Below the pieces are notes generated by a model. That model worked only from the letters and a program-made list of their open reading frames with translations, did not search any database and had not been told where the DNA came from. The position numbers were made by a program, and so were the translations under genes. This document shows, one piece after another, positions 5,541 through 48,043 of a stretch of DNA of 51,426 nucleotides. This DNA is from Minisyncoccota bacterium (GTDB lineage: Bacteria > Patescibacteriota > Minisyncoccia > UBA6257 > 2-01-FULL-56-20), in the NCBI GenBank assembly GCA_022843285.1, contig JALHNY010000004.1:43596-95021 (forward strand). The letters run 5' to 3'. The first letter of the stretch is position 1, and each line of letters opens with the position of its first letter.

Positions 5541-5550
5541 TCACGTTCTG

Positions 5551-5623
5551 AGCCACTTCGGGGATTCGAACCCCGGACCTCTGCTTTACGAAAGCATTGC
5601 TCTACCAACTGAGCTAAAGTGGC
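5551..5623 (-). tRNA. tRNA-Thr (anticodon CGT)
   Basis: The acceptor stem GCCACTT pairs with AAGTGGC. The D arm is GCTC...GAGC, the anticodon loop is TTCGTAA (anticodon CGT, reads ACG), and the T arm GGGGTTCGAATCCCC is perfect. CCA is not encoded. Upstream on the minus strand are TTGACC, a 16-nt spacer and TAACAT. Confidence 0.95.
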
Positions 5624-5676
5624 GATACCGCACCATGTTACCTAGCGCCCGAGGCGGGTCAAGAATGTGATGTATG

Positions 5677-5705
5677 TTGACCGCTCTCTCGGACGAGCGT
5701 ATAAG
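5677..5705 (+). promoter_or_regulatory. Near-consensus -35/-10 promoter
   Basis: TTGACC (5677-5682), 17-nt spacer, TATAAG (5700-5705). It drives the 57-aa membrane protein at 5745. Confidence 0.7.
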
Positions 5706-5744
5706 AGAACTTAGACCCAACCGGGGTACAGGAGAAAACAGCAT

Positions 5745-5918
5745 ATGTTCAACGCGCACAGTGGCGAAAGGTACGACGATGGCTTCACCAGAATCGGCTT
5801 CGGTGGCATTGTCGTCGGTCTGTTCCTGCTCGGCTCGCTCGTCTGGGCGGCTGAGAGCGGAGCGTTCGCTGAGTTCCTGAGCGGCATCGTGTCCCTGGGG
5901 CACCTGGTCGGACAGTGA
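5745..5918 (+). CDS. Small single-pass membrane protein
   Basis: 57 aa, below usual gene-calling limits. It has a polar N-terminus (MFNAHSGERYDDGF), one Gly-rich membrane segment (GFGGIVVGLFLLGSLVWAA, about residues 18-36) and a short amphipathic tail. It is supported as a gene by a near-consensus promoter, a CAGGAG Shine-Dalgarno at 5729-5734 about 10 nt before the ATG, and a terminator directly after the stop. Function unknown. Confidence 0.75.
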   Translation: MFNAHSGERYDDGFTRIGFGGIVVGLFLLGSLVWAAESGAFAEFLSGIVSLGHLVGQ

Positions 5919-5934
5919 GCGAAGCGGGGGCAAA

Positions 5935-5963
5935 CAAAAGGGAGGCGGTGCGCCTCCCTTTTG
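5935..5963. terminator. Bidirectional intrinsic terminator
   Basis: 13-bp perfect stem CAAAAGGGAGGCG with GTG loop and T4 tracts on both strands. It serves the 57-aa gene and the convergent DUF5671 gene. Confidence 0.9.
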
Positions 5964-5976
5964 CGATTTCACCTTG

Positions 5977-6945
5977 CTACATGCGGGGGCCTTCCGACGG
6001 GTACTGCGGGTACCGCTCAGGATCAATCGTGCGATCGAAGCAGGTTTCACCCACGCCGTGACCCCAGGTTACCGGGCCGCCCTTGCTCGTGACGTCGAAT
6101 GGGTACGGCGAGGTGCTGCGCTCCAAGCTCGGCTCCGTGTACTCCGTCTCAAAGTTCGCGCAGATCCGGAAGCTGTACGTGTCCACTGCCTCGAAGCCGT
6201 ACTGCTCTCCCGTCACCGGATCAGACGGCAGCGGCACGGGGTTAGCCGGGTCTACAAGCTCACCGAGGGAAGCTGGCAGGCGCCCCTTCTGCTGCCAGAA
6301 GTTCGTGGTCTGCCACTGAATCTCCTGGAGGTTCGAAATCCGGGTCATGTCGTTGCGCGCGGCGCGCGCGCTGGACGGGCTGCCGGCAACCACGAAGCCG
6401 GCGATGACCGCGGCACCCACCGCCACCGATGCAATGACCGTGATTACCTTGCGCGCCCGCATCGCCGTGCCCGGCTCGCGCCTGAGCAGGAACCAGTGGT
6501 ACGCGAAGACGCCACCCGCCACGGCGGCAACCGCGAGCGCCTTGAGGATGAAGCGGCTCGCGACGTCTCCCCCGAGGAGGGTGTACACGAGGAACACTAG
6601 ATCTCCGAGCAGCGTGACGGCTGCGAAGAAGAGCGTCGCGTAAATAAACCAGCGGCGCACCCAGATGTGCTGCTTTGCCGGCTCACGGTCCACGTCCTTG
6701 CCAATCCACCACATCGAAGCGACGTAGGCTGGGAAGATGATGACGAGGAGCGCGATGGACCAGCGCAGCGCGCTGCTGATTCCCTCTGATCCGTAGTAGT
6801 CGAAGCTCTCCGGGAGCGGGAAGCAGTAGTTAATGAGCTGCCACAGAAGCGTGACGAGGGTTACCGCACAGAAGTACAGTGCCCCTGCGGCGAAGGCGTA
6901 CAGGAAGAAGTCTTTTGGAGACGTCTTTACGGGTGTGTTTTCCAT
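5977..6945 (-). CDS. DUF5671 membrane protein
   Basis: 322 aa. The first half matches the DUF5671 pattern common in Patescibacteria: SPKDFFLYAFAAGALYF, LRWSIALLVIIFPAYV and VRRWFIYATLFFAAVTLLGDLV. It has about five transmembrane helices up to residue 205. The C-terminal extracytoplasmic part (about 215-322) resembles pilin-like C-terminal heads (ISNLQEIQWQ...WQQKGRLPASLGEL...DPVTGEQY) and contains cysteines. TAGAAT (6952-6957, extended TGc) ends 6 nt before the ATG, so it is leaderless-type. A C9 tract sits where a -35 would lie. Confidence 0.8.
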   Translation of the reverse strand: MENTPVKTSPKDFFLYAFAAGALYFCAVTLVTLLWQLINYCFPLPESFDYYGSEGISSALRWSIALLVIIFPAYVASMWWIGKDVDREPAKQHIWVRRWFIYATLFFAAVTLLGDLVFLVYTLLGGDVASRFILKALAVAAVAGGVFAYHWFLLRREPGTAMRARKVITVIASVAVGAAVIAGFVVAGSPSSARAARNDMTRISNLQEIQWQTTNFWQQKGRLPASLGELVDPANPVPLPSDPVTGEQYGFEAVDTYSFRICANFETEYTEPSLERSTSPYPFDVTSKGGPVTWGHGVGETCFDRTIDPERYPQYPSEGPRM

Positions 6946-6973
6946 GCACCCATTCTAGCAGGAAAGTGGACTA

Positions 6974-6982
6974 CCCCCCCCC
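6974..6982. repeat. C9 homopolymer tract
   Basis: Nine consecutive C (G on the transcribed strand) immediately at the -35 distance, 16 nt above the -10 of the DUF5671 gene. Such tracts can change length by slippage. Confidence 0.6.
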
Positions 6983-6996
6983 TCGCAGGCACGGCC

Positions 6997-7314
6997 TTAC
7001 TGCTCTACCGCAGCACCCTCAATACGCTCGATTCTCGTCATCACGAGGCCAAATCTGATATCCAAGTCTACCTCCAAGTTTGCAAATCGCTCGTCAATCC
7101 TTTTTTCAAGGTCCTCAAACCGGGCATTCATTCTTCTTTCAAGATCCTCGAATCTCACATTGATTCTGGACTCGAGATTTTCGAAGCGCGCATTGATTCT
7201 AGACTCGATCTTTTCGAAGCGCGCATCGATGCTAGACTCCAGCTTTTCGAATCTTTGATCAACAGCCGTAAATTTCTGATCCAGGTACGCGGCAAGCTCT
7301 GCGAAGGTGTTCAT
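6997..7314 (-). CDS. Hendecad-repeat coiled-coil protein
   Basis: 105 aa, no membrane segment or signal. Residues 21-86 are six consecutive 11-residue repeats of the form RFExLExRINA (R at 21, 32, 43, 54, 65, 76, with a partial seventh at 87). The 11-residue period (hendecad) predicts a right-handed or nearly straight coiled coil. Base composition is clearly lower in GC than neighbouring genes because of Glu, Phe, Ile and Asn codons. TACGTT (7321-7326, extended TGc) ends 6 nt before the ATG. Function unknown; similar short repeat proteins are often annotated only as hypothetical. Confidence 0.75.
   Translation of the reverse strand: MNTFAELAAYLDQKFTAVDQRFEKLESSIDARFEKIESRINARFENLESRINVRFEDLERRMNARFEDLEKRIDERFANLEVDLDIRFGLVMTRIERIEGAAVEQ
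7057..7254 (-). repeat. Six 33-bp tandem repeats inside the coiled-coil gene
   Basis: In-frame degenerate 33-nt units encode the RFExLExRINA hendecads; adjacent units differ at several bases, so this is not a recent expansion. Confidence 0.75.
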
Positions 7315-7369
7315 GTCGCCAACGTAGCAAGCGCGGATTAAGCCGTGATAAAACCCATGAAAATCTTAG

Positions 7370-7440
7370 TGGACCCACGGAGAATCGAACTCCGGCTTCT
7401 TCCATGCCATGGAAGCGTGATGCCATTTCACTATGGGCCC
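7370..7440 (-). tRNA. tRNA-Ala (anticodon GGC)
   Basis: The acceptor stem GGGCCCA pairs with TGGGTCC and includes the G3-U70 wobble that identifies alanine tRNAs. The anticodon loop is ATGGCAT on a CTTCC/GGAAG stem. CCA is not encoded. Confidence 0.95.
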
Positions 7441-7454
7441 TTTTAAACGAGCGT

Positions 7455-7512
7455 ATGCTACGCCAATACACCGGGGCGCGCAATTGAAGCACAAGACCCT
7501 TTTTGCCATGAT
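7455..7512. promoter_or_regulatory. Divergent tRNA promoters with abutting -35 boxes
   Basis: Minus strand: TTGCGC (7478-7483), 17-nt spacer, TAGCAT (7455-7460) for tRNA-Ala. Plus strand: TTGAAG (7484-7489), 17-nt spacer, CATGAT (7507-7512) for tRNA-Arg. The two -35 hexamers are directly adjacent. Confidence 0.6.
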
Positions 7513-7522
7513 GCGTCCGTCC

Positions 7523-7597
7523 GCCCCCGTAGTTCAACGGATAGAACAAATCCGTCCTAAGGATAAGATGGGAGTTCGATTCTCTCCGGGGGTACCA
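7523..7597 (+). tRNA. tRNA-Arg (anticodon CCT), CCA encoded
   Basis: The acceptor stem GCCCCCG pairs with CGGGGGT. The anticodon loop is GTCCTAA (CCT, reads AGG) and the T arm GGGAGTTCGATTCTC is intact. Discriminator A is followed by a genomic CCA, unlike the other tRNAs in the window. Confidence 0.93.
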
Positions 7598-7621
7598 GCC
7601 AAACGGCAGCCGGCACGAAAA

Positions 7622-7643
7622 GTGCCCCGCAAAAGCGGGGCAC
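7622..7643. terminator. Hairpin terminator
   Basis: GTGCCCCGC / GCGGGGCAC, 9-bp stem with AAAA loop, between tRNA-Arg and the convergent secreted-protein gene. There is no long T tract on either side. Confidence 0.65.
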
Positions 7644-7654
7644 CTGGAACCGTA

Positions 7655-8527
7655 TCAGTACGGGACGTTGAGGACAGACGCGTAGGACTTGTAACAGCCC
7701 GTCGCGGTCACCGCGATCACGTCGTGGTACTGACCTCCTGGCAGTAAATTCTGAGGGTTGGTGACCTCATACGCCGTTGCCGTGCCACCCGCGAAGGGGT
7801 GACCGCCAAACGTGAGACCGGACAAGGAGTCTGTCAGCAGGCTACGGAAGTAAACCTGTCCACTCGCTTGGTACCCGAACAGCCACGCCTTCGCCCCTTG
7901 CCCCCGGTGGGGCAGCGTCGTTTCGAAGACTGATCCGTTCGGGAACTGGGCGGTCACGCCACTGCCTCCCTCCCCGCAAATGCCAATGGGCACCACGGGA
8001 ACAGAGAACGCCTTGATGGACGTAGCCCACCTGCGCTCGTACCGGTACGTGATAGCACTCGGCTCGAACACGAGGTAGTTGAGCACCGAACCATCGGACA
8101 CGGGGCACGCCACAGCAATCCGTGCAGCTTGGGCGGGTGAAATACGGTACTTGCCGTTCCAGCCCTGACCCTGCACCTGCGTCTTGAGGTGACCGTACTC
8201 CGAGACCGCCTGCCAGCTGGTTGAGATGATGGTGAAATCATCTGCAGACGGGGGCGCGCTCGGGTGCTGTGCCGAAATGAGCACACACCCCGCGGGGTTA
8301 TTCAGCGTGACGCTATCCGCGTACGCGTACACCTCTTCGATGACGAGCGTGTCCGATCCGGTGTTCCAGATCCACATCTCGCGCGTCTGAGCACGGGAAC
8401 TGTTCGCCTCGACGCTCGCGACACCCGGAGCGCTCAACGCTACTCCTGGCTCTTGAGCCAATCCAACCGTCATCCCCACAAAAAACAGTGCTGCTGCGAG
8501 CAGCACCACAAATTTCATTTGTCTCAT
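7655..8527 (-). CDS. Secreted hypothetical protein
   Basis: 290 aa. The signal peptide covers about residues 1-23 (MRQMKFVVLLAAALFFVGMTVGLAQ). The mature part is beta-rich with scattered cysteines and aromatic residues, and no recognisable domain. The start at 8527 is preferred over an upstream in-frame ATG because AGAGGA (8535-8540) lies 7 nt in front and the signal peptide then begins correctly. It has a long leader with two hairpins and a TTGAAA-16-TACACG promoter. Probably released or surface attached. Confidence 0.7.
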   Translation of the reverse strand: MRQMKFVVLLAAALFFVGMTVGLAQEPGVALSAPGVASVEANSSRAQTREMWIWNTGSDTLVIEEVYAYADSVTLNNPAGCVLISAQHPSAPPSADDFTIISTSWQAVSEYGHLKTQVQGQGWNGKYRISPAQAARIAVACPVSDGSVLNYLVFEPSAITYRYERRWATSIKAFSVPVVPIGICGEGGSGVTAQFPNGSVFETTLPHRGQGAKAWLFGYQASGQVYFRSLLTDSLSGLTFGGHPFAGGTATAYEVTNPQNLLPGGQYHDVIAVTATGCYKSYASVLNVPY

Positions 8528-8540
8528 ACCGATTTCCTCT

Positions 8541-8593
8541 GCGCACGCCACGTGCGCTACCGCCAGTCTGCTAAACGCATAACCCGCAGACTG
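8541..8593 (-). promoter_or_regulatory. Structured 5' leader with two hairpins
   Basis: Hairpin 1 is GCGCACG/CGTGCGC with a 3-nt loop (8541-8557), directly upstream of the Shine-Dalgarno. Hairpin 2 is CAGTCTGC/GCAGACTG (8564-8571 with 8586-8593, 14-nt loop). No known riboswitch class is recognised. Confidence 0.5.
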
Positions 8594-8611
8594 AAAGGTC
8601 GTCCTCTGAGG

Positions 8612-8639
8612 CGTGTACCTCTCGCCAGGTAAATTTCAA
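8612..8639 (-). promoter_or_regulatory. -35/-10 promoter of the secreted-protein gene
   Basis: TTGAAA (8634-8639), 16-nt spacer, TACACG (8612-8617), giving a leader of about 75-80 nt. Confidence 0.45.
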
Positions 8640-8692
8640 AGAACACCGAGAACTTATGGCAGCGGGGTGCCCGCGTCAAGGAGGCTGGCGAT

Positions 8693-8721
8693 TGCCTGGC
8701 CCCTCCTCCCTGGGCTAGGAT
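8693..8721 (+). promoter_or_regulatory. tRNA-Ser promoter
   Basis: TTGCCT (8693-8698), 17-nt spacer, TAGGAT (8716-8721), ending 10 nt before the first tRNA base. Confidence 0.55.
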
Positions 8722-8731
8722 TCCCCTGCCC

Positions 8732-8818
8732 GGAGGCGTGCCAGAGCGGTTGAATGGGACGCACTCGAAATGCGTTATACCGGAAACGGTATCGGAGGTT
8801 CGAATCCTCCCGCCTCCG
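8732..8818 (+). tRNA. tRNA-Ser (anticodon CGA)
   Basis: The acceptor stem GGAGGCG pairs with CGCCTCC. It has a long variable arm (ACCGGAAACGGT), anticodon loop CTCGAAA on ACGCA/TGCGT, and G73 as in serine tRNAs. It reads UCG; CCA is not encoded. Confidence 0.95.
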
Positions 8819-8861
8819 CACCAGAGCTGAGACACCCTCTCTTTCGTATACAATCTTTCAC

Positions 8862-10373
8862 ATGCCCCCCGCCGTAGACCGCTTCCTCAACGGGACCACC
8901 ATGTACCGGGTCGTCCTGTACGCGCTCTTCTCGCTCGCCGGGGTCGCCATCATTCTCGCGAGCCTGGGGCTCATCTCGCAGAGCCCGGTTGGCATGGTGA
9001 TCTCGCTCCTGCTGCTCACCGCCACCTGCTACTTCGCAAACGACGTTCTGGCAAAGCTCTTCCACGCCCCGTCGAACCCGGAGTCGTCGTCCATCACGGC
9101 GCTCATCCTGTTCTTCATTCTCGCCCCGGCGTCCACGGTCCTCGACGGGGGCATCGCGGTCTTCGCCGGCACCATCGCCATGGCGAGCAAGTACTTCATC
9201 GCGCGGGGCAAGCAGCACATTGTGAACCCCGCCGCCTTTGCCGCGGTCGTGGTGGGCATTCCCACCGGCGCCGCGCTCTGGTGGGTGGGCACGCCGTACA
9301 TGCTCCCCTTCACGCTCATCGCCGGTGGGCTCATCGCGCGCAAGGTTCGCCGCGTCCAACTGGTCCTCGCCACGATTGGCGCGGGTCTCGTCGCGTTCAC
9401 CGCATACGGAATCTTCGCCGGCGGCGACCTCACCCCGACCATCGCAAGCTTCTTCCTCTCGTGGCCCATCGTGTTCTTCGCGAGCATCATGGTCACGGAG
9501 CCCATCACGGCACCCGGCACCCGAAAGGCGCAGCTCCTGTACGGGTCACTCGTGGGCATATTCTCCGGCATTCCGCTCCACGTCGGCGCCATCTACTCCA
9601 CCCCCGAGCTGACCCTCACCGTCGCGAACATCGCCTCCTTCACGCGGGGGCTGCGCCGCCGCCTCATCATGAAGCTCACATCGGTGCGCGAGGTGGCCCG
9701 CGAGACGTACGAGTTTTCGTTCGAGAAGCCGGAGGGCGTCGCGTTCAAGCCGGGCCAGTACCTGGAGTGGACGCTCGCGCACGACAAGCCGGACCTCCGC
9801 GGCATCCGCCGCTACTTCACCATCGCCTCGTCCCCCACCGAGGAGGACATCAAGATTGGCGTCCGCATCGGCGAGAAGCGCAGCAGCTTCAAGGAACGCC
9901 TCCACTCGCTGCAACCCGGCGATGAGATTGTGGCGGGCGTGCGCGGCGGCACGTTCACCCTGCCCGAGGACCGCGGAGAGAAGCTCGCCTTCATTGCCGG
10001 CGGCATCGGCATCACGCCGTTCCGCAGCATGGTCCGCCACCTCATTGACACCGAGCAGGAGCGCGACGTGGTTCTCCTCTACGCCTGCCGCACGTACGCG
10101 GACGTCGCGTACGCGGACCTGTTCGCCGAAGCGAAGGAGGCGTTCGGGCTGCGCACGACGTACGTCCTCAGCGAGAGCAGGGAGGGTGCGCCAGGAGACG
10201 CCGAGAAAGGCTTCGTTGACGGGCCAATGCTCGCGCGCGTCGCCCCGGACTTCAGGGACCGCACCTGGTACCTGTCCGGCCCCGATGCCATGGTGCAGGC
10301 GTACCGCAAGCTCCTCCGCGGCGAGGGCGTGAGCCCGGCGCGCATCCGCACGGACTACTTCCCCGGCTTCTGA
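8862..10373 (+). CDS. RnfD/NqrB-like membrane domain fused to FAD/NAD(P)H oxidoreductase
   Basis: 503 aa. Residues about 15-255 form a multi-helix domain with NQR2/RnfD-type landmarks: NPESSSITALILFFILAP, GKQHIVNPAAFAAVVVG and VTEPITAPGTRKAQLLYG. Residues about 265-503 are a ferredoxin-reductase-like module: FAD site RYFTIASSP, NAD(P) site GGIGITPF, and the YLSGPDAMV motif near the end. The predicted role is to take electrons from cytosolic NAD(P)H through FAD into a membrane flavin carrier. TACAAT (8849-8854) ends 7 nt before the ATG and fixes the start. Its stop overlaps the apbE start (TGATG). A true Rnf or Nqr complex would have five or six separate subunits, which are absent here. Confidence 0.8.
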   Translation: MPPAVDRFLNGTTMYRVVLYALFSLAGVAIILASLGLISQSPVGMVISLLLLTATCYFANDVLAKLFHAPSNPESSSITALILFFILAPASTVLDGGIAVFAGTIAMASKYFIARGKQHIVNPAAFAAVVVGIPTGAALWWVGTPYMLPFTLIAGGLIARKVRRVQLVLATIGAGLVAFTAYGIFAGGDLTPTIASFFLSWPIVFFASIMVTEPITAPGTRKAQLLYGSLVGIFSGIPLHVGAIYSTPELTLTVANIASFTRGLRRRLIMKLTSVREVARETYEFSFEKPEGVAFKPGQYLEWTLAHDKPDLRGIRRYFTIASSPTEEDIKIGVRIGEKRSSFKERLHSLQPGDEIVAGVRGGTFTLPEDRGEKLAFIAGGIGITPFRSMVRHLIDTEQERDVVLLYACRTYADVAYADLFAEAKEAFGLRTTYVLSESREGAPGDAEKGFVDGPMLARVAPDFRDRTWYLSGPDAMVQAYRKLLRGEGVSPARIRTDYFPGF

Positions 10374-11242
10374 TGCAGCCCCGCTCCTTCTCGTACGAGT
10401 CCATGGGCTCACGCTGGGAGGTCACGGCGTGGGGCGAGATCTCCGATGCTGACTTCGGCGCGATCCGCGACGAGGTCACCGCGGCGTCTAACCGGTTCGA
10501 CGAGACGTTCTCGCGCTTCAAGCGGGACTCGCTGGTCTGGCACATGGCGGGCGCGCCCGGGGTGCACGAGGTGCCCCGCGACCTCACGTCCATGCTCCGC
10601 CTGTACGAGAAGCTCCACGAGCCCTCCAACAGAAAGCTCAACCCGCTCATCGGGTTCACAATCAGCGACCTCGGGTACGACGACGCGTACACCCTCATCC
10701 CAAAGGAGCGCGTCCGCAGCACGCCCGACTTCTCCGCTATCCGCGTCACTGATGACACGCACGTCGAGCTCACCGAGCCCGCTCTCCTCGACCTCGGCGC
10801 GCTGGGCAAGGGGTTCTTCGTGGACCGCATCGGCGAGATGCTCGAGGCGCGCGGCGTGGAGCGCTACCTCGTGGATGGCAGCGGCGACATCCTGTACCGC
10901 GGCAGCGAGCCCATCGCGGCCGGCCTCGAGCACCCCGGGGACGCGTCCAAAGTCATCGGCAGGATTGAGGTCACCGGTGGCGCGCTCTGCGCATCCGGAA
11001 CGAACCGGCGCCGCTGGGCGGACCTGCACCACATCATCGATCCCAGCGACTCCAAGCCGACGAGGGGCATACTCGCGTCCTGGGCGCTCGCCGACACCGC
11101 CGCCATGGCGGACGGCCTCGCCTCGTGCCTGTTCTTCGCGGACCCAGAAACGCTGAGGACGCAGTTCCCTTTCGAGTACTGCGTCCTCTACGAAGACTTC
11201 ACCGTCGCCCGCTCTCCGGGCTTTGCAGCTGAGCTGTACTAG
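10373..11242 (+). CDS. apbE: FAD:protein FMN transferase (ApbE)
   Basis: 289 aa. ApbE transfers FMN from FAD onto a Thr/Ser of FMN-binding domains using Mg2+. Family features are LGALGKGFFVDRI (about residue 140), VDGSGDI (about 165), the HHIIDP motif (about 220) and a late Thr/Ala-rich segment (ALADTAAMADGLA). The protein starts with MQPRSFSYES and shows no signal peptide or lipobox, although ApbE usually acts outside the cytoplasmic membrane; this is unusual. It is translationally coupled to the reductase gene and adjacent to its likely substrate at 11239-11733. The two genes' stops overlap as CTAG. Confidence 0.88.
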   Translation: MQPRSFSYESMGSRWEVTAWGEISDADFGAIRDEVTAASNRFDETFSRFKRDSLVWHMAGAPGVHEVPRDLTSMLRLYEKLHEPSNRKLNPLIGFTISDLGYDDAYTLIPKERVRSTPDFSAIRVTDDTHVELTEPALLDLGALGKGFFVDRIGEMLEARGVERYLVDGSGDILYRGSEPIAAGLEHPGDASKVIGRIEVTGGALCASGTNRRRWADLHHIIDPSDSKPTRGILASWALADTAAMADGLASCLFFADPETLRTQFPFEYCVLYEDFTVARSPGFAAELY

Positions 11243-11733
11243 GAAGCCTGGGTCGGGTTAACCGCCTGCGCCTGAATCTTCACGATTGCATCCATGAAGC
11301 CCTTCGGGGTCAGGGACGAGCCGTTGACCACGGTGAGCGAAACCTCGTCGATGCTCTTGCCCACCACCATCTCGCGGTACCCCTGGCTGAACTGGCTCTG
11401 CATGCGAACGCTCGCGGGGTTCGTCGCGTTGCCGCTGAACGTGATATCCGAGATGACGTCACCGGCGAGCGTGAGCGAAACGTTCACGGTCTCCGCGCCC
11501 GCGGGCGAGGTGTACGAGCCACCTGCCGAGTACGAGCCGTCCGCGTACTTGGTCTGCGGAACCTGCTCGGTGGGAACGGTGCCGTTGCCAGCTGCGTTCG
11601 GGTTGGAAGCCTCCTGCTGATTTGCGGGGTCCTTACCCACGCCCGTGACCCAGGCCACGAGCGCGCCGATGACCGCAATGCCCAGGAGGGCACCTACGAT
11701 GAGCGGGGTTTTTGAGCGATTTTCGTTGTTCAT
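11239..11733 (-). CDS. Membrane-anchored FMN-binding (RnfG/NqrC-like) protein
   Basis: 164 aa. The N-terminal anchor is about residues 10-29 (PLIVGALLGIAVIGALVAWV), then a Asn/Gln/Pro-rich linker, then an FMN_bind domain: YADGSYSAGGSYTSPAG, LTLAGDVISDITFSGNA, and near the end VVNGSSLTPKGFMDAIVKI. The last corresponds to the S-G-A-T flavinylation motif (here S-S-L-T), with the Thr expected to carry FMN. TAGAAT (11741-11746, extended TGc) ends 7 nt before the ATG. Convergent to apbE. It would be the extracytoplasmic electron acceptor of the locus. Confidence 0.82.
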   Translation of the reverse strand: MNNENRSKTPLIVGALLGIAVIGALVAWVTGVGKDPANQQEASNPNAAGNGTVPTEQVPQTKYADGSYSAGGSYTSPAGAETVNVSLTLAGDVISDITFSGNATNPASVRMQSQFSQGYREMVVGKSIDEVSLTVVNGSSLTPKGFMDAIVKIQAQAVNPTQAS

Positions 11734-11755
11734 GGGGCATATTCTAGCACGGACG

Positions 11756-11783
11756 TTGTAATATGCGACGGGCGCTATATGAT
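11756..11783 (+). promoter_or_regulatory. tRNA-Ala(TGC) promoter
   Basis: TTGTAA (11756-11761), 16-nt spacer, TATGAT (11778-11783), 10 nt before the tRNA. Confidence 0.55.
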
Positions 11784-11793
11784 GTCGCCACGA

Positions 11794-11866
11794 GGGCCGT
11801 TAGCTCAGTTGGTAGAGCACCTCATTTGCAATGAGGGGGTCATCGGTTCGAATCCGATACGGTCCA
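11794..11866 (+). tRNA. tRNA-Ala (anticodon TGC)
   Basis: The acceptor stem GGGCCGT pairs with ACGGTCC with the G3-U70 alanine determinant. The anticodon loop is TTTGCAA on CCTCA/TGAGG, and the T arm TCGGTTCGAATCCGA is intact. CCA is not encoded. Confidence 0.96.
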
Positions 11867-11910
11867 CAGCAAGACTCGCCACCCACCCTCCCCCGAGGTA
11901 AGGTTCATGT

Positions 11911-13158
11911 ATGCACCGCGTCTCCAAGCAGCCACTCGGCAAGTCTGATGCCGCCATTGCGCGGCTCATTGCCGAAGAAGCTGCACGCCAGGAGGAGGGC
12001 ATCGAGCTCATCGCATCGGAAAACTACGTGAGCCAGGCGGTCCTCGAGGCGGTGGGCTCGATCCTCACGAACAAGTACGCGGAGGGGTACCCTGGCAAGC
12101 GGTACTACGGCGGCTGCGAGGTCGTCGACAAAGTGGAGCAGCTCGCCATAGATCGCTGCAAGAAGCTCTTCGGGGCAGAGCACGTGAACGTGCAGCCGCA
12201 CAGCGGATCTCAGGCGAACGATGCAGCCCTCGCCGCCATCCTCGAGCCCGGTGACAAGATTCTCTCTCTCGAGTTCAGTCACGGCGGCCACCTCACGCAC
12301 GGGCACCCGCTCAGCTTCTCCGGCAAGCGGTACCGGGTCGCGCACTACGGCGTCGATTCCAAGACCGAGGTCATCGATTACCAGAAGCTGCAGAGCATCG
12401 CCAACGAGGAGAAGCCCAAGGCCATCATCTGCGGCGCATCCGCGTATCCACGCACCTGGGACTTCGCGCGCATCCGCACGGCCGCTAACTCGGTGAAGGC
12501 GTACATGGTGGCGGACATTGCCCACATCGCGGGGCTCGTCGCCACGGGCCTGCACCCGTCCCCGTTCCCCCACGCGGATATTGTGACCACCACCACGCAC
12601 AAGACCCTCCGCGGCCCGCGCGGCGGAGTCATCATGTGCAAGCAGGGGCTCGCGGATGCCGTGGACCGTGCGGTCTTCCCGGGCGCGCAGGGTGGCCCGC
12701 TCGTGCACGTCATCGCCGGCAAAGCGGTGGCTTTCGGCGAAGCGCTCAAGCCCGCTTTCACTACCTACCAGAAACGCGTCCTCGCGAATGCCGCTGCCAT
12801 GGCGCAGGCCATCAGTGACGCCGGCGTTCCGATCATCTCGGGTGGCACGGACACGCACCTCTTCCTCGTCAACCTCACGAGCAGCGGGCTCACGGGCAAC
12901 GTCGCCGAAGAGGTGCTCCAGGGCGTGGGCATCACCGTGAACAAGAACGCTATTCCCTTTGACTCGCGCCCGCCGCGCGTGACGAGCGGCATCCGCATCG
13001 GCACACCCGCCATGACGACGCGCGGCATGGGCGTTCCAGAGGCCCGAAAGATTGGCGAGCTCATTGCGCGCGTCATCCTCCACCCCGGGGATAAGAAGGT
13101 TCTGGAGGACACCCGCTCCTCGGTACGGGAGCTGGCCGCCCGCTTCCCCATAGCGTAG
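11911..13158 (+). CDS. glyA: Serine hydroxymethyltransferase
   Basis: 415 aa, normal family length. This PLP enzyme interconverts serine and glycine with tetrahydrofolate and supplies one-carbon units. Signatures are [11 protein letters not shown] at the N-terminus, [34 protein letters not shown], and the PLP lysine in [15 protein letters not shown] weak -10 (TAAGGT, 11899-11904) ends 6 nt before the ATG and the leader has no clear Shine-Dalgarno. It lies 44 nt downstream of tRNA-Ala, so cotranscription with the tRNA is also possible. A terminator follows. Confidence 0.97.
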
Positions 13159-13163
13159 CGAAA

Positions 13164-13186
13164 AGCCGCACCTCACCGGTGCGGCT
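13164..13186. terminator. Intrinsic terminator after glyA
   Basis: AGCCGCACC / GGTGCGGCT, 9-bp stem with 5-nt loop; the T-rich tract after it is short. Confidence 0.65.
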
Positions 13187-13204
13187 CCTCATATGCCGGA
13201 TGCG

Positions 13205-14317
13205 TCAGGGAATCTGCCCCAGCCTCCGGGCTATCTGGTGGTTGCTGTGGTACGCATCACCCGTGACCTCGGTGAAAATCTCAGCGTACCCGGGCGGCAG
13301 CTCGAGCGTCTCGCCCTCCTCGGTGAGCTCTACCTCGAGGTACACGGCACCGATGCGGGGTATGGAATCGAGCTCGTAGTAGCGCCCGTTCCACACGAAG
13401 CAGTGCCGCCACTTCTCGATTTTGCCGCACTCTGGATCTGCCCGCTTGAGCAGCTCGAAGAACGCGCGCTCTGAGATGTTCCGCTCCCACTCGCGGCGCA
13501 CGCCCGGGCGCACGAGCTCTTTGAACGTGTGGTAGTACACAGTGCCCCGCCCCCTGCTCCACGCCCTCACCCTCTCCTCGACGTCGGAATCGTCGGTCTT
13601 GAGGTAGTACTGCTCGATGGCTGCCTGGACGGTGTGAGCCGGGAACGGCGGCAGCCCCTGGTACCCTGGATCTAGCACGAACTTGTGCTCAATCTCGAGC
13701 GGCGCCGGAATCTCAACCGCGTGGCAGATTGCCGCAAACGCCCTGGTGAGCTTGGACTCCAGGCTGTCCGCGTTGTCCACGATGGTCAGGTGGGGATGCC
13801 CCACCCACGCATCGAGCGTCTTCTGGTTGAGCCCCACCGCAGCTCCCACCGTCTCGGTGCGCGCCGCGTTGTTCTCAATCGTGAATAGCTCCGGCTTGTC
13901 CACTGCAACGGACTCCATGAATACCACCGCGTCGTACCGCTTGTCGCAGACGTCCACGATCGTGTACCCAAGCGTGCCGAGCATGCGATCGAACTCGTGT
14001 GCAGCCATGTAGGCTCGCGAGTCCATCGTACCCCTGTCGCACAGGATGACCACTTTCTCGCCGGGATGCGCGAGCGCACCCGCCTTGAAGATATCCTCCT
14101 TCTGCATGATGTAGCGCATGAGCTGCAGCTGGAAGCTCTCCGCGCTAATTTCCCACGGCTTCAGACCGCCCACGATGAACTCCGTGGCTGCCTCTGAAAC
14201 GGTGATGACGGTGAACCCCAGGTCAGCGAGCCGCTGCTGCGCGACGCTGATGAGCGTGGTCTTGCCGCTGCACGGACCACCCGTGATGACTATGACCGGT
14301 ATGTGCCTTCTTTCCAT
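13205..14317 (-). CDS. P-loop NTPase/kinase (AAA_28-like) fused to CYTH triphosphate-binding domain
   Basis: 370 aa. Residues 1-200 are a P-loop domain (Walker A GGPCSGKTT, 13-21; VVILCDRGTMDSRAY around 90-103) of the AAA_28 group related to NadR-type kinases. From about residue 205 a CYTH domain begins with its ExExK motif (E208, E210, K212), followed by many basic and acidic residues (EERVRAWSRGRG, YLEVELTEEGE). CYTH enzymes act on inorganic triphosphate or nucleotide/thiamine triphosphates; the substrate here is unknown. The same domain pair occurs in some eukaryotic proteins. It has AGGAGGAG before the ATG and a TTGCCG-17-TAAGTT promoter, so it belongs to the leadered class. Confidence 0.78.
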   Translation of the reverse strand: MERRHIPVIVITGGPCSGKTTLISVAQQRLADLGFTVITVSEAATEFIVGGLKPWEISAESFQLQLMRYIMQKEDIFKAGALAHPGEKVVILCDRGTMDSRAYMAAHEFDRMLGTLGYTIVDVCDKRYDAVVFMESVAVDKPELFTIENNAARTETVGAAVGLNQKTLDAWVGHPHLTIVDNADSLESKLTRAFAAICHAVEIPAPLEIEHKFVLDPGYQGLPPFPAHTVQAAIEQYYLKTDDSDVEERVRAWSRGRGTVYYHTFKELVRPGVRREWERNISERAFFELLKRADPECGKIEKWRHCFVWNGRYYELDSIPRIGAVYLEVELTEEGETLELPPGYAEIFTEVTGDAYHSNHQIARRLGQIP

Positions 14318-14356
14318 AAACTTTCTCCTCCTCTGAACTTTGAAACCTCTGCCCGC

Positions 14357-14385
14357 AACTTACGTGACTCCCGGTGCCCCGGCAA
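14357..14385 (-). promoter_or_regulatory. -35/-10 promoter of the AAA_28-CYTH gene
   Basis: TTGCCG (14380-14385), 17-nt spacer, TAAGTT (14357-14362). The leader of about 35 nt ends in AGGAGGAG. Confidence 0.5.
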
Positions 14386-14429
14386 CTGTGGTGCGAAAAG
14401 CCCACTCCTGCTAGCCTCTCCGTGACCAC

Positions 14430-14516
14430 GGTGGGGTGTCTGAGTGGTCGAAAGAGACTGTCTTGAAAACAGTTGTACGGGAAACCGTACCGTGGGTTCG
14501 AATCCCACCCCCACCG
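14430..14516 (+). tRNA. tRNA-Ser (anticodon TGA)
   Basis: The acceptor stem GGTGGGG pairs with CCCCACC. It has a long variable arm (GTACGGGAAACCGTAC), anticodon loop CTTGAAA on ACTGT/ACAGT, and discriminator G. It reads UCA. A TAGCCT box lies at 14412-14417. Confidence 0.95.
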
Positions 14517-14522
14517 CCCAAA

Positions 14523-14997: not shown

Positions 14998-15600
14998 TCA
15001 CATCGTATCACTCTCGTACCGCTCCTGCGCGTGCTGCCAGTTAGCCACGTTCCACCACGCCTTCACGTAGTCCGCGCGCTTGTACGTGAAGTCCACGTAG
15101 TACGCGTGCTCCCAGACGTCGAGCCCGAGGATGGGCTCGGGGCGCCCCTCGGCAACCGGCGTGTCCTGGTTGGGGGAGGTCTCAATGGACAGGTCCGGCA
15201 TCAGCCAGGACCAGCCGGACCCGAAGACGCCCAGCGACTTCTCCGTGTACGCGTCCACGAAAGCCTGGAAGCTGCCGTACCTGGCCACGAGGCCGTCCAT
15301 GAGCGGACCGGAGGGCTCTCCCCCGCCGTCCGGGGACATCCACTGCCAGAAGAGCGAGTGGTTGTAGTGCCCGCCGGCGAGGTTGCGCACCGCGGGCTTC
15401 ACCGCCTCCGGCACGGACTGGTACGAGCGGACGAGGTCCGCGACCGGCATGGCGAGCAGCTCCGGGTGATCCGCGAGCGCGGCGTTGAGCTTCTCGACGT
15501 ACAGCCTGTGGTGCTGCGCGTGGTGCAGCTCCATGATGTTCTTGCTCAGGTACTTGCCGAGCGCATCGTACGCGTACGGGAGTTCGGGTAGCTTGTGCAT
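14998..15600 (-). CDS. sodA: Superoxide dismutase (Fe/Mn family)
   Basis: 200 aa. Metal ligands H26, H81, D161 and H165 are all in place (ELHHAQHH, GGHYNHSLFW, DVWEHAYYVDF). The GGHYNH and PNQDTP segments resemble the Mn-type more than the Fe-type, but metal use cannot be decided from sequence alone. It detoxifies superoxide in the cytoplasm. TAGGAT (15607-15612, extended TGg) ends 6 nt before the ATG. The downstream VOC gene overlaps its stop. Confidence 0.95.
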   Translation of the reverse strand: MHKLPELPYAYDALGKYLSKNIMELHHAQHHRLYVEKLNAALADHPELLAMPVADLVRSYQSVPEAVKPAVRNLAGGHYNHSLFWQWMSPDGGGEPSGPLMDGLVARYGSFQAFVDAYTEKSLGVFGSGWSWLMPDLSIETSPNQDTPVAEGRPEPILGLDVWEHAYYVDFTYKRADYVKAWWNVANWQHAQERYESDTM

Positions 15601-15617: not shown

Positions 15618-16175
15618 CTAGAGAGCCCGCGCGGCGAGGCCCACGAGCAGGATGCCGAGGGCATTGAACGCGAACGAGATGAGCATGAAGTAGCCGGTCT
15701 TCATCTTCGAGGCGCCGAGCAGCGTCACGGCGAGCTCATCCGGCAGGGGCGAGGCGATGAGCAGGCCGCCCAGGATCCACGAGAACCACCTCGTGGACTT
15801 TCTCATCAGGAGCTCCGCCAGGCGCTCCGTGCCACCAGCCAGCTTGAGGTACTCCATGAGGTGATCAGAGAGGCGGTCCCGCACGAAGCGGAAGATGACC
15901 ATGTCGCCCACCATCGCGCCGAGGCCGCCGAGGGCAGCCACCTCAAGGAGGCTCCCCGCGCGCGCCAGCTCGCCGAGCGTCGCCGTGGCGGGCGCCACCG
16001 TGAAGGTGGAGGTGAAGAACATGCCGGCAATGAAGCTGCCGAGGAGCGCCAGCTCGTGGGTGCGTCCGAGGATGGAGATCAGGACGTCCGTGCGGACGAG
16101 AATGACGGCGACCCCGACGGACACGGCAATGATGGCCGCGTCCCAGAAGATCATCTGCTGCCTAGGCGTGAGCAT
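15618..16175 (-). CDS. VTT/DedA-like small integral membrane protein
   Basis: 185 aa with about five hydrophobic segments. It carries a conserved-looking AMVGDMVIFRFVRD turn and an ASPLPDELAVTLLGAS re-entrant-type motif, as in VTT/DedA-like proteins. The start overlaps the upstream ATPase gene by 14 nt; the longer in-frame reading into the ATPase gene is rejected. It is similar in size and motif layout to the protein at 29791-30351. Transport or lipid-scrambling roles are known for the wider family, but none is assigned here. Confidence 0.6.
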   Translation of the reverse strand: MLTPRQQMIFWDAAIIAVSVGVAVILVRTDVLISILGRTHELALLGSFIAGMFFTSTFTVAPATATLGELARAGSLLEVAALGGLGAMVGDMVIFRFVRDRLSDHLMEYLKLAGGTERLAELLMRKSTRWFSWILGGLLIASPLPDELAVTLLGASKMKTGYFMLISFAFNALGILLVGLAARAL

Positions 16176-18771
16176 GGCGGAGGTGCCTGGGGCGGAAGAG
16201 CCACTTGCCGAACTCGACCAGCGCGACGCTCGCGAGGCCGACCGCGAAGACGCCGCCCACCCACGGGAGCGAGAGCGGCACGGTATCAAAGATTCTCTGC
16301 AGCGGCGGCAGGTAGATCACGGCGGCCATCATGGCGAAGCCGATGCCCGTTCCCACGACGAGGTACCGGTTGGAGAGGAGCGGGTACGAGACCACGCTCG
16401 CGCGGAGGCTCCGCACCGCGAAGACGAGGAACAGCGTGTACACGCCGAAGCTCGCGAAGATGAAGGTGCGCACGTACTGCGGGTCAAAGTCCAGGCGCAG
16501 CAGCAGCACGTACAGTGCGAACAGGAGCGCGCTCGTGATGGTGCCGATGACGAGCACGAGGAACTTGAGCTCCGCGTCGAACAGGTTCCGGTGGATGCGC
16601 ACCGGGCCGCGCCCCACATCGCCACGGTTCTCCTCGAACGCGAGGGCCATGGCCGGGAAGCTGTCCGTGAAGAGGTTCACCCAGAGGATCTGCAGCGTGT
16701 TGAGCGGCAGCGGGATGCCGAGGACCATCGAGCCGCCGATGAGCAGGAGCCCGTCGAAGGCGTTCGAGAGCGTGTACGCGATGACCTTGCGAACGTTCTG
16801 CAGCACGTTCCTCCCCTCCTCGATGGCCGCCACGATGGTCTCGAAGTTGTCATCCAGGATGACCAGATCCGCGCTGGACTTTGCCACGTCGCTGCCCGAG
16901 CCGACGGCTACGCCGATGTCCGCCTCGCGCAGCGCGGGCGCATCGTTCACGCCGTCCCCGGTCATGGCGACGACCTCACCGAGCGCCTTGAACGCGCGGG
17001 CGATGCGGAGCTTGTGCTCCGGCGTGGTGCGGGCAATGACGCGCGCCACCTTCAGCCGCTCGCGCAGCTCGTCATCTCCGAGCGAGTCGACCTGCGGACC
17101 GGTCAGCACGGACCCGTCCACGTCGGTGGGAATGCCCACCGCGTGCGCCACCGTGAGCGCGGTACCCGCGTGGTCGCCCGTGACGATGAGCGTGCGCACG
17201 CCCGCCGCCTCGACGCGCGCGATGGCGTCCCGCACGCTCGGGCGGATCGGGTCGCGGAAGGTAATGAGCCCCAGGAACTCCGCGCTCCGCGACTCCACGT
17301 GGGACGCGAGGGACCCGCCACCCGCGAGCTGCGCGGCTGCCACCGCGAGCACGCGCGCGCCCCCGGATGCCAGCTCGTCCACGCGATCCGTGGCCAGCTT
17401 CGCGAGCTCCGCGTCTGCCCTGCTCCGCGCGAGGAGCGCCTCGGGCGCGCCGAAGAGCACCACGTACGCCTCGCTCTCCCGGCGCACGACGCTCGCCGCG
17501 TACTTGTTAGAAGAGTTGAACGGCAGGCGCTCGACCACCTCGAAGGAGGACCGGACCGTGGGCAGGTGCACGCCGAAGCGCGCGGAGCCTCGCGCGAGCG
17601 CCACCTCCACCGGCCTCCCCACCACCTGCCAGGACTCCGGCGCCTCCTCGGGGTTCTCGATGAGGACGTCACTGTGCGAGACGGCGAACTCGAGCAGCTC
17701 GGCCTCGGTGCGGCTCTTGGAGAACGGCAGCACGGACTCGAGCTCCATCTTCGCCTCGGTGAGCGTGCCCGTCTTGTCCGTCATGACCACCGTGGTGCTG
17801 CCGAGTGTCTCGGCCGCGAGCAGCTTCCTGACCACGCCCTTCTTGCGCGCGAGGCGCTCCACGCCGATTGCGAGAATGACCGTGAGGGCAACCGGGAGGC
17901 CCTCCGGCACCGCCGCCACAGCCGTCGCCACGGAGATGAGGAACATCTCGAGCGGCGAGCGGCCCGAGTAGATGCCGTACAGGAACAGGACGGTCGTCAA
18001 CACGGAGAGCACGATGGTGGCGCGGTACGTGAAGCGGAGCAGCGCCTTCTGGAGCGGCGTCTGCTCGCGGTGCGCCTCGGCGATGAGCGTCGCGATGCGG
18101 CCAATCTCGGTCGCCGTGCCGGTACCCGTGACCACCGCGGTCGCGTACCCCTGCACCACGGTGGTGCCGCTGTACGCGACGCTCGCGCGGTCTCCGAGCG
18201 GCACGTCCTCGCCCACCGGATCGGTGCCCTTATCAACCGGGAGCGACTCTCCGGTCAGGATGGACTCATCCACCTGGAGGTCCGCCGCCGCGATGAGGCG
18301 CACGTCCGCGGGCACCCGGTCTCCCTGGTTGAGCTGCACGACGTCACCCGGCACGAGCTGGCTCGCCTCGACGAGGCGCTCGCGGCCGTCGCGCAGCACG
18401 CGCGCGCGATCTTTCACGTACGTGTTCAGGAGCGCGAGCGTGTTCTCTGCCTTCGCCTCCTGGTACAGGCCGAGGAGCGCGTTGACGAGCACCGCGCCGA
18501 GGATGACCGCCGAGTCCCCCCACTCGCGGAGCAGGAGCGTCACCGATCCCGCGATGAGCAGGATGAGGAGAATCGGGCTCTTGAACTGGCTCAGGAAGAT
18601 GCGGAGCAGGCCGAGCCTACCCGCCTGTGGGAGCGTGTTCGGGCCGAACTGCGCGAGGCGCTCCGTAGCAGCTGCGGAGGCCATTCCCCGGGAATCCGCC
18701 CCGAGGCCCTCGAGCACCGCGCTCGCGGGCTGTGCCCAGGGTGCGCGCGTGCCGCCGTGCTCGGCTCTCAT
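16162..18771 (-). CDS. Cation-transporting P-type ATPase (Ca2+ ATPase-like, type II)
   Basis: 869 aa. In order: a cation-ATPase N-terminal domain (QFGPNTLP, about residues 41-48), actuator loop LTGES (172-176), PEGL in TM4 (289-292), phosphorylation site DKTGTLTEAKM (D332), the ATP-binding domain, hinge GDGVNDAPALREADIG, and six C-terminal helices. The VPEGLPVALT context and overall length fit SERCA/PMR1-like calcium pumps; Na+ or Mn2+ are alternatives. TAGTGT (18778-18783, extended TGg) ends 6 nt before the ATG. It forms an operon with the overlapping membrane protein. Confidence 0.93.
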   Translation of the reverse strand: MRAEHGGTRAPWAQPASAVLEGLGADSRGMASAAATERLAQFGPNTLPQAGRLGLLRIFLSQFKSPILLILLIAGSVTLLLREWGDSAVILGAVLVNALLGLYQEAKAENTLALLNTYVKDRARVLRDGRERLVEASQLVPGDVVQLNQGDRVPADVRLIAAADLQVDESILTGESLPVDKGTDPVGEDVPLGDRASVAYSGTTVVQGYATAVVTGTGTATEIGRIATLIAEAHREQTPLQKALLRFTYRATIVLSVLTTVLFLYGIYSGRSPLEMFLISVATAVAAVPEGLPVALTVILAIGVERLARKKGVVRKLLAAETLGSTTVVMTDKTGTLTEAKMELESVLPFSKSRTEAELLEFAVSHSDVLIENPEEAPESWQVVGRPVEVALARGSARFGVHLPTVRSSFEVVERLPFNSSNKYAASVVRRESEAYVVLFGAPEALLARSRADAELAKLATDRVDELASGGARVLAVAAAQLAGGGSLASHVESRSAEFLGLITFRDPIRPSVRDAIARVEAAGVRTLIVTGDHAGTALTVAHAVGIPTDVDGSVLTGPQVDSLGDDELRERLKVARVIARTTPEHKLRIARAFKALGEVVAMTGDGVNDAPALREADIGVAVGSGSDVAKSSADLVILDDNFETIVAAIEEGRNVLQNVRKVIAYTLSNAFDGLLLIGGSMVLGIPLPLNTLQILWVNLFTDSFPAMALAFEENRGDVGRGPVRIHRNLFDAELKFLVLVIGTITSALLFALYVLLLRLDFDPQYVRTFIFASFGVYTLFLVFAVRSLRASVVSYPLLSNRYLVVGTGIGFAMMAAVIYLPPLQRIFDTVPLSLPWVGGVFAVGLASVALVEFGKWLFRPRHLRHAHA

Positions 18772-40548: not shown

Positions 40549-42180
40549 CTAGAGCGCGGGCCGCACGGAAACGTACGTGCTCGCGGATCCGACGCCCTCG
40601 ACGTGGCCCACCACCTCGAAGCGCTGCGCCGTCGCGACGTCCGCGCTGGCGTGCGCATCAATGTCGTGCTCGAAGGTCCAGGACTTCTTCCCTCCCGCAT
40701 CAATCGTCACCGAGGTGAGCGCCATCATGCACAGCTGCACGCTGCGGAGCGAGAAGCCGGGCAGGACGTCGTAGCTAGCCTGGCAGCTGTTCGGGAAGAC
40801 AATCGTCTTCGCCTCCTTGGTCTCGTTGGTCGCCGTGACGGTGATTTTCATCGTGTCCGAGGAGCGGTACGTACGCCTGTCCGTCTTCACGGATACCTCG
40901 ATGCCGTCCGTGTCGTTCCCCTGCGTCTCAGAAACGGTGATGAGGAGCGGCAGGTAGGCGGAGCGACCCTTCGCGTCCGTTACCTGGAGGGTAGCCACGT
41001 AGCGCCCCGCCATTGTCGGCGTTCCGCTGATGCTCGCGGAGGAGGTGTCCGCCTGCGGGCACGGGGTCGTGATGCAGTTGATCACCCCAGCGGTCACGAG
41101 TTCCATGCCGGGCGGCAGGCCGCGGGTGGCGCCGAGCGGCGGGTAGATGACCCGGTTCTTGGCAATCGCCCAGGTGTACGGCGCGACGCTCGAGGTGCCG
41201 CCGACGCCGAAGCTCATGGACGCGGCTTTTCCAACCGTCAGAATCGGAGAGCTCACGCCCGTGGACTTGATGACGAAGCCACCCTCTGAGGCCAGGCGGG
41301 TCATGTCGCGGACCACCTGCGCGGTGACCTCGGCAGCCTTGCGGCTCTTCATGGTGCCGTACACGTTGATGGTGTCACCGATTGCAATCTCCTTGCGGTT
41401 CAGGGGCTGGCGGTTCGCGTCGACGACCTTCGCCGATGCGGGCACCGTGATCTGGTACACGCGGCTGTCATCGTAGAAGCGCAGGGCAGATGCCTGCTCG
41501 CCGCGGAGTGAGGAGCGGACGGTCTCGAGCGGCTGCGTGCCCTCCGGGCACGGGAACGCGAGGCGGCCGCCGCCGACGTACTCGTAGCAGGGACCCGCGG
41601 TGCGCGAAGCGGTGATGACGAACTGCCCCGACGCGTCGCTCACGCCGATGACCTGGAGGTCCTCGAGCTGGACGGTCATGCCAGCAGCGGGCTTGTCGAG
41701 GTCGCGCACGACGCGCGCATCAATCTGGCCGCTCGCCACGTCCATGAGGCCGAAGACGTTGATGCGGTCTCCCACCTCAATTTCGCCGAGGGCCAGAGCC
41801 TTGCGGGCGCGGTCCATGATCTTCGTGTTGTACATCACGCGCACCTGGTACTCCGGAACCATGATCCTGGAGCACGCGAGCGGAGCGGCGCTCGTTTCGG
41901 TGGCGAAGCGGGTGCACGTGCCGACCGTCGGGCTGACGGTCAGAATGGCCTGGAGCCCGCTCGGGGCGAAGCTGCCATCCGGGCCGCCCTGGATGGTGGC
42001 GAGGTGGTCGACGCGGTTGACGGTGAGGTTCGGGATCTGGACGTACTCCTTTTTACCCTGAGACGTGATCTCAGCAGGAATGGAGCCAGTCGTCTGACCA
42101 AAAACCGCACCCGGGAGGGAGGCGAGCAGCACGGCGCTGGAAATCAGCGCTGCCGAAGCCTTTTTAGAGAATGGGGACAT
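40549..42180 (-). CDS. Secreted multidomain protein with OB-like repeats, Ig-like and BsuPI-like domains
   Basis: 543 aa. The signal peptide is about 1-28 (ending GAVFGQ). Two related segments, GEIEVGDRINVFGLMD...QIDARVVRDL (about 135-165) and KEIAIGDTINVYGTMK...EVTAQVVRDM (about 262-295), look like DUF5666/OB-type units. A putative Ig domain (SISGTPTMAGRYVATLQVTDAKG, about 390-420) and a C-terminal BsuPI-like beta-sandwich (KTDRRTYRSSDTMKITVTATN) follow. Probably cell-surface or released. TATACT (42188-42193) ends 7 nt before the ATG. Confidence 0.75.
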   Translation of the reverse strand: MSPFSKKASAALISSAVLLASLPGAVFGQTTGSIPAEITSQGKKEYVQIPNLTVNRVDHLATIQGGPDGSFAPSGLQAILTVSPTVGTCTRFATETSAAPLACSRIMVPEYQVRVMYNTKIMDRARKALALGEIEVGDRINVFGLMDVASGQIDARVVRDLDKPAAGMTVQLEDLQVIGVSDASGQFVITASRTAGPCYEYVGGGRLAFPCPEGTQPLETVRSSLRGEQASALRFYDDSRVYQITVPASAKVVDANRQPLNRKEIAIGDTINVYGTMKSRKAAEVTAQVVRDMTRLASEGGFVIKSTGVSSPILTVGKAASMSFGVGGTSSVAPYTWAIAKNRVIYPPLGATRGLPPGMELVTAGVINCITTPCPQADTSSASISGTPTMAGRYVATLQVTDAKGRSAYLPLLITVSETQGNDTDGIEVSVKTDRRTYRSSDTMKITVTATNETKEAKTIVFPNSCQASYDVLPGFSLRSVQLCMMALTSVTIDAGGKKSWTFEHDIDAHASADVATAQRFEVVGHVEGVGSASTYVSVRPAL

Positions 42181-47599: not shown

Positions 47600-48043
47600 C
47601 TAGTTCGCCGGAGCTCCGTCGCAGTTGTCCAGGATGCAGAACGCGCGCGCGACGTTCCCGCTCCTGCCGAGTGCCTTGATGGTAATTGTCTGGTTCGGGT
47701 TGCAGTCCGCAACCGCGGCGCCGGCATCGTCCAGGCACTCCACCGTCACGGTGGCGCCGTTCCGGAAGGTCGGCAGCTCCGGATCCGGGCACGGCTGCTT
47801 GGTCGGGTCCTCCGCGCAGAGCAGGTTATACAGCCCCCACTCGATGCCGGCGTCCGCGGCGAACACGGCACGCGCAGAGTGGTTAATGTCCGAACCCTGC
47901 CTGATCTGGTACAGCATGAGCAGGCCCGCGATGGTGGTCGCCCCCATGAGCGCGCCGCCGAGGGTGAGGACGGTGAGCATCATCACCTGCCCTCCCCTCT
48001 CACCCCCGCTACTGCGGGAGGATTTCGATGCGAGTCGTGACAT
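47600..48043 (-). CDS. Prepilin-like (PilX-type) protein
   Basis: 147 aa. A basic N-terminal leader with GERGGQ is followed by a hydrophobic helix (VMMLTVLTLGGALMGATTIAGLLMLY), then an ADAGIEWGLYNLL segment and a Cys-containing head. This matches the PilX-like minor pilins found with CPR type IV pili. The start is uncertain: the ATG at 48043 overlaps the upstream adhesin gene by 35 nt, while a GTG at 47986 follows a GAGGGGAGGG Shine-Dalgarno. A still longer frame is rejected. Confidence 0.68.
   Translation of the reverse strand: MSRLASKSSRSSGGERGGQVMMLTVLTLGGALMGATTIAGLLMLYQIRQGSDINHSARAVFAADAGIEWGLYNLLCAEDPTKQPCPDPELPTFRNGATVTVECLDDAGAAVADCNPNQTITIKALGRSGNVARAFCILDNCDGAPAN

Follow-up and report, generated by a model that had tools for sequence, protein, structure and literature searches.

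Patescibacteria are thought to live by fermentation, and a locus in one of them that looks equipped to carry reducing power out of the cell raises the question of what this gene set is and where the flavin on the outside would be attached. We analysed a stretch of 51,426 nucleotides from a Minisyncoccota genome (hereafter the window), in which an initial annotation had recognised three adjoining genes and read them as a very compact device for exporting reducing power. That reading is supported by our results, but the device is not new: the window locus is a new member of the published NQR/RNF-like system, and the idea of a compact exporter was therefore already in print. The initial annotation was silent on the missing export signal of the ApbE protein, and it is this missing signal that puts the covalent attachment of FMN in question.

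Organisation of the locus

A combination of Pfam, hhalign and VIA-align bore out the three genes, which encode a fusion protein, an ApbE and an FMN-bind protein (Table 1), although both outer boundaries needed revision. The reading frame of the fusion opens at 8754, inside a tRNA-Ser gene (8732-8819), and its start is likely the ATG at 8862, giving 503 aa, rather than 8849; at the other end, 11746 lies 13 bases beyond the ATG of the FMN-bind gene at 11733. The coupling of apbE to the fusion was upheld, with the apbE ATG at 10373 overlapping the stop codon of the fusion by one base. The FMN-bind gene is convergent with apbE, and four bases are common to it and the apbE 3' end. A promoter and terminator scan returned two promoter-like matches and no terminators.

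Table 1. Features of the three-gene locus, with positions counted from the first nucleotide of the window
Feature	Position	Strand	Length or basis
NqrB/RnfD-like + FAD/NAD(P)H reductase fusion	8862..10373	+	503 aa
Membrane domain of fusion, NqrB/RnfD-like	about residues 1-262	+	homology and AF2 model
Ferredoxin-reductase-type FAD/NAD(P)H reductase domain of fusion	about residues 265-503	+	homology and fold
ApbE FAD:protein FMN transferase	10373..11242	+	289 aa; Pfam, catalytic triad
FMN-bind (NqrC/RnfG-like) protein, membrane-anchored	11239..11733	-	profile and structure match
Core motif KQHIVNPAA, NqrB/RnfD domain	9210..9236	+	aligns with QNPFNPA of RsxD
Core motif MVTEPITAP, NqrB/RnfD domain	9489..9515	+	aligns with LTDPVTAS of RsxD
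RRYFTIASSP, FAD-binding motif of fusion	9807..9836	+	both R in 40/40
IAGGIGITPF, NAD(P)H-binding motif of fusion	9993..10022	+	GG, G, TP in 40/40
Predicted FMN acceptor Ser140 in VVNGSSLTP	11314..11316	-	alignment of FMN-bind partners
Sigma-70-like promoter match just 5' of ATG 8862	8827..8854	+	consensus match only

The three-gene set is bounded by the tRNA-Ser gene and a tRNA-Ala gene (11794-11867), and six single tRNA genes stand between genes around the locus, within 9 kb (5550-14520). Also nearby are genes for an iron/manganese superoxide dismutase (14998-15600), which suggests contact with oxygen, and a P-type cation ATPase (16162-18771). Further along the window, two open reading frames of 543 aa (40549-42180) and 826 aa (48009-50489) had no Pfam match at 1e-5.

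The membrane-reductase fusion

The reductase part of the fusion matches the Pfam family NAD_binding_1 (PF00175) at 1.9e-16 and has no 2Fe-2S domain. The membrane part scores 22.4 bits against NQR2_RnfD_RnfE (PF03116), under the Pfam cut-off of 27.7. Its assignment was upheld by a profile of 40 Patescibacteria fusions, which aligned with E. coli RsxD at an hhalign probability of 96.8% with the core motifs in register, and by an AF2 model (pLDDT 90.7, pTM 0.83) that superposed on Azotobacter RnfD (8rbq_D) with a VIA-align Z of 23.8 over 246 residues at 3.6 A. The same model matched NqrF reductase domains with Z of about 25-26. Few rows of the fold lists test the membrane part, because ferredoxin-reductase chains fill them and RnfD 8rbq_D is the main row for that part. 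The initial annotation had looked to structure prediction and superposition as a check on its reading, and the models retained the FAD and NAD sites of the fusion as well as the FMN-bind fold of its partner.

In the alignment of fusions, the H, N, P and last A of KQHIVNPAA are invariant in 40/40 sequences. The RsxD segment holding the flavinylation site, which lies between the two core motifs, is a gap in the fusion. This segment contains SQATPL, to which the flavinylated Thr of RnfD belongs. The initial annotation had also stated that no other Rnf/Nqr subunits are present, and this stood for the two families searched genome-wide: neither a second NqrB/RnfD gene nor a match to the NqrD/E-RnfA/E family (PF02508) was found in the 782-kb genome, which is 94.8% complete.

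The FMN-bind protein and its acceptor motif

The FMN-bind protein has a predicted N-terminal anchor helix (residues 13-31), a disordered linker and a single FMN-bind domain (residues 64-164), and its model becomes confident at about residue 60. Neither Pfam nor NCBIfam returned a match, and a PF04205 search of its own genome missed it. Nevertheless, a family profile matched the FMN-bind domain 8p2a with a sequence E of 1.7e-13, and the model superposed on 8p2a with a VIA-align Z of 10.4 (2.2 A over 87 residues) and on NqrC with a Z of 8.2, in agreement with the initial description of a membrane-anchored FMN-bind protein beside the other two genes. IscU-like folds came first in Foldseek; VIA-align ranked 8p2a first, and the IscU-like assignment was rejected.

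The flavinylation-type motif proposed earlier (SSLTPKG) held in part. Among 52 aligned FMN-bind partners, the acceptor position is Ser or Thr in all 52 and Gly occupies position -2 in 51. The motif in the window, TVVNGSS, is relaxed, with only Gly138 and the acceptor Ser140 kept of the published D-x-x-[S/T]-G-A-[S/T]. According to published work on this motif, replacement of the Asp has minor effects, changes to the Gly or Ala roughly halve flavinylation, and Ser is less favoured than Thr.

The sequence features of the protein suggest that its domain would be exported to the extracytosolic side. All FMN partners that we examined have a hydrophobic N-terminal anchor or, in many Actinobacteria, a lipobox-like sequence. 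An inverted topology is disfavoured by the basic N-termini and the lipobox-like relatives. One locus (L075, 5000-5947) encodes a 315-aa partner in which two FMN-bind repeats can be seen by eye in the alignment.

ApbE and its localisation

The ApbE of the window matches the Pfam family at 2.2e-36, is homologous to solved ApbEs and keeps the catalytic residues Ser208, His220 and Asp247 of the published triad (PMC12052999). It has no signal peptide, lipobox or transmembrane segment, and only 10 residues precede the start of the conserved domain. A mis-called start was considered and rejected, as no earlier start codon follows the preceding stop in this reading frame and its relatives agree.

This property extends well beyond the window. 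Using a hydrophobicity measure, not SignalP, we found a hydrophobic N-terminus in 0/75 ApbEs from fusion or NqrB-like loci of Patescibacteria, Chloroflexi, Actinobacteria and Proteobacteria, a set in which a few species are present in both sequence collections. The highest 12-residue mean hydropathy among these 75 was 0.97 vs 2.68 for E. coli ApbE, the positive control; long ApbE frames reaching into an upstream fmn gene were cut beforehand to the part outside fmn plus 60 bases. In addition, none of 10 Patescibacteria ApbEs encoded away from a fusion had a hydrophobic N-terminus.

The own genome holds a single ApbE gene, and no TatC, FAD synthetase or flavokinase was recognised in its 782 kb (94.8% complete); searches for FAD synthetase in relatives gave sub-cut-off matches only. 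With neither flavin enzyme recognised, flavin cofactors would have to be obtained ready-made. FAD must then be scavenged, and could be at hand inside the cell or outside it.

Distribution and gene order

An NqrB-like match was found in 73/380 Patescibacteria genomes; in about ten of these 73 the protein is a distant or split form, roughly 270 aa long. The co-occurrence in related genomes on which the initial reading had been staked was recovered: among 79 full-length fusion loci, an FMN-bind partner lies within 4 kb in 59 and all three genes are present in 46. In 40 of these 46 loci the order is fmn, apbE, fusion on one strand, with apbE adjoining fmn. The order in the window (fusion and apbE on one strand, followed by fmn on the other) occurs once in that set. 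The three genes were also found in Ktedonobacteria, Anaerolineaceae, Mesorhizobium and many Actinobacteria. Across the loci, there was no conserved fourth gene naming an electron acceptor.

Four loci (L095, L096, L097 and L099) encode a split NqrB-like protein, about 260-290 aa long, that has no reductase domain. These split forms adjoin apbE and lipobox-like FMN-bind proteins, and the ApbE is again leaderless.

Proposed mechanism and alternative readings

In the mechanism that we propose, FAD in the cytosolic FNR-type domain would be reduced by hydride transfer from NAD(P)H. Electrons would next reach a flavin bound non-covalently in the NqrB/RnfD-like membrane part of the fusion, then the FMN on Ser140 of the anchored FMN-bind protein, which lies outside the membrane in this scheme, and from there a further acceptor. 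ApbE would attach the FMN while the precursor of the FMN-bind protein is still in the cytosol, and Sec would then export the flavinylated chain. The path from NAD(P)H through FAD and a membrane carrier to extracytoplasmic FMN, as given in the initial annotation, is supported and coincides with the published NQR/RNF-like proposal (PMC8238504, PMC11334425); electron flow itself is, as in the published members, a proposal. Our results show the gene identities, folds, cofactor motifs and linkage and the loss of the NqrB/RnfD flavinylation segment; from there we infer the flow, its direction and the occupancy of the flavin sites.

That the locus is an NQR/RNF-like unidirectional electron exporter is highly probable. 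Since the single ApbE found carries no export signal, we infer cytosolic attachment before Sec as the most economical reading of its localisation, and hold this step to be about evenly balanced. Taken together, an exporter with cytosolic attachment is probably the best explanation of the locus. In favour of this step, a tag of seven residues is enough for ApbE to modify, and the enzyme is active in the cytosol if it is coexpressed in that compartment (PMC12052999). Against it, an ApbE knockout in an early study was not complemented by cytosolically expressed ApbE. Somewhat more tentatively, we suggest that in NQR/RNF-like systems, perhaps across Patescibacteria, a cytosolic ApbE flavinylates an extracytosolic flavoprotein before it crosses the membrane. 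If this is true, the usual order, export first and flavinylation afterwards, would be reversed.

The leaderless ApbE could instead serve another, cytosolic target, leaving the FMN-bind protein with non-covalent FMN or without covalent FMN. There is precedent in Klebsiella, where, according to a 2025 review (PMC12052999), a leaderless ApbE serves the cytosolic fumarate reductase; the relaxed motif in the window fits this reading as well. An ApbE is not recognisable in 15/57 fusion genomes. Two of these (L036 and L044) still encode an FMN partner whose acceptor is intact, and the system may therefore not depend on covalent attachment. However, the adjoining of apbE and fmn in most three-gene loci speaks against a separate target, as does the acceptor conserved in every aligned partner, and ApbE is likewise missing from every one of the 13/57 genomes whose fusion locus has no FMN partner. 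We regard a different target as unlikely.

We give still less weight to an exporter of the same kind in which ApbE is secreted along some pathway that needs no classical leader and, in the manner of periplasmic ApbEs, modifies the FMN-bind domain there. Where exported FMN-bind proteins have been characterised, the ApbE that modifies them is exported as well (PMC12052999), and external FAD may be available to a genome with no flavin-activating enzymes, but an N-terminal signal was seen in 0/85 ApbEs examined and no TatC was recognised. We know of no leaderless export route for ApbE.

A comparably small chance attaches to the fusion being a general membrane NAD(P)H oxidase or ferric reductase, with the FMN-bind protein one of several partners and a cupredoxin taking its place in some lineages. 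Both ApbE and an FMN partner are missing from the surroundings of 19 full-length fusion loci, five of which carry a cupredoxin-domain gene within 1.5 kb. Such a gene was found in 5/20 loci without an FMN partner vs 1/59 with one (Fisher p 0.003, the hypothesis coming from the same loci). The full H-C-H-M copper site is seen by eye in only three of the five (L039, L088 and L090), gene orientations vary, and the window, which has an FMN partner, is not directly touched. The remaining two (L087 and L091) lack the copper-ligand Cys by eye, and L056 is a further cupredoxin-bearing fusion locus. Because these loci themselves prompted the hypothesis and the Cys is missing in two of the five, the cupredoxin association is only a lead.

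Comparison with known systems

The NQR/RNF-like system is defined by an N-terminal PF03116 and a C-terminal PF00175 in one protein with linked flavinylation genes, and most of its reported occurrences are in Actinobacteria and the candidate phyla radiation (Meheust 2021 eLife, PMC8238504). A 2024 mSystems paper models it and notes the absence of the NqrB-type flavinylation site (PMC11334425). The window locus shares the NqrB/RnfD-PF00175 fusion, the anchored NqrC/RnfG-like partner, the linked apbE and the occurrence in the candidate phyla radiation. The fusion is followed by apbE and then the FMN-binding gene, where the definition asks for either of them within five genes; the partner carries an anchor helix and a Ser acceptor, its export being predicted; and the membrane subunit lacks the flavinylation site. 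The locus differs in gene order, with fmn reversed at the end rather than leading on the same strand. Its FMN-bind and NqrB parts fall under Pfam cut-offs, and a Pfam-based screen could thus miss it. In the published screen, genes lacking both a signal peptide and a lipidation site were discarded, and candidate phyla were reported as strikingly underrepresented; in our survey 73/380 Patescibacteria genomes have an NqrB-like match, and the ApbEs carry no signal. Among the papers listed in our literature search, none joined Patescibacteria and flavinylation, and we found no functional test of the system, to which the window is a well-supported addition.

Na+-NQR and RNF have homologous NqrB/RnfD and NqrC/RnfG domains and an NqrF-type FAD/NAD domain. 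In contrast to them, no NqrD/E-RnfA/E family gene was found in the 782-kb genome, the fusion lacks the flavinylation segment and the 2Fe-2S domain, and the published NQR/RNF-like model has one-way flow and no ion pumping. The closest likeness for the ApbE is an intracellular one: the 2025 review (PMC12052999) gives examples from Klebsiella and trypanosomatids, with fumarate reductases as substrates. Like the window protein, the ApbE of Klebsiella pneumoniae has no signal peptide; its substrate is a soluble, cytosolic fumarate reductase, whereas the linked substrate here is predicted to be exported. Unlike the classical exported ApbE lipoprotein, the window ApbE has no N-terminal signal or lipobox, and this placement sharpens the question of where an outside flavin is attached.
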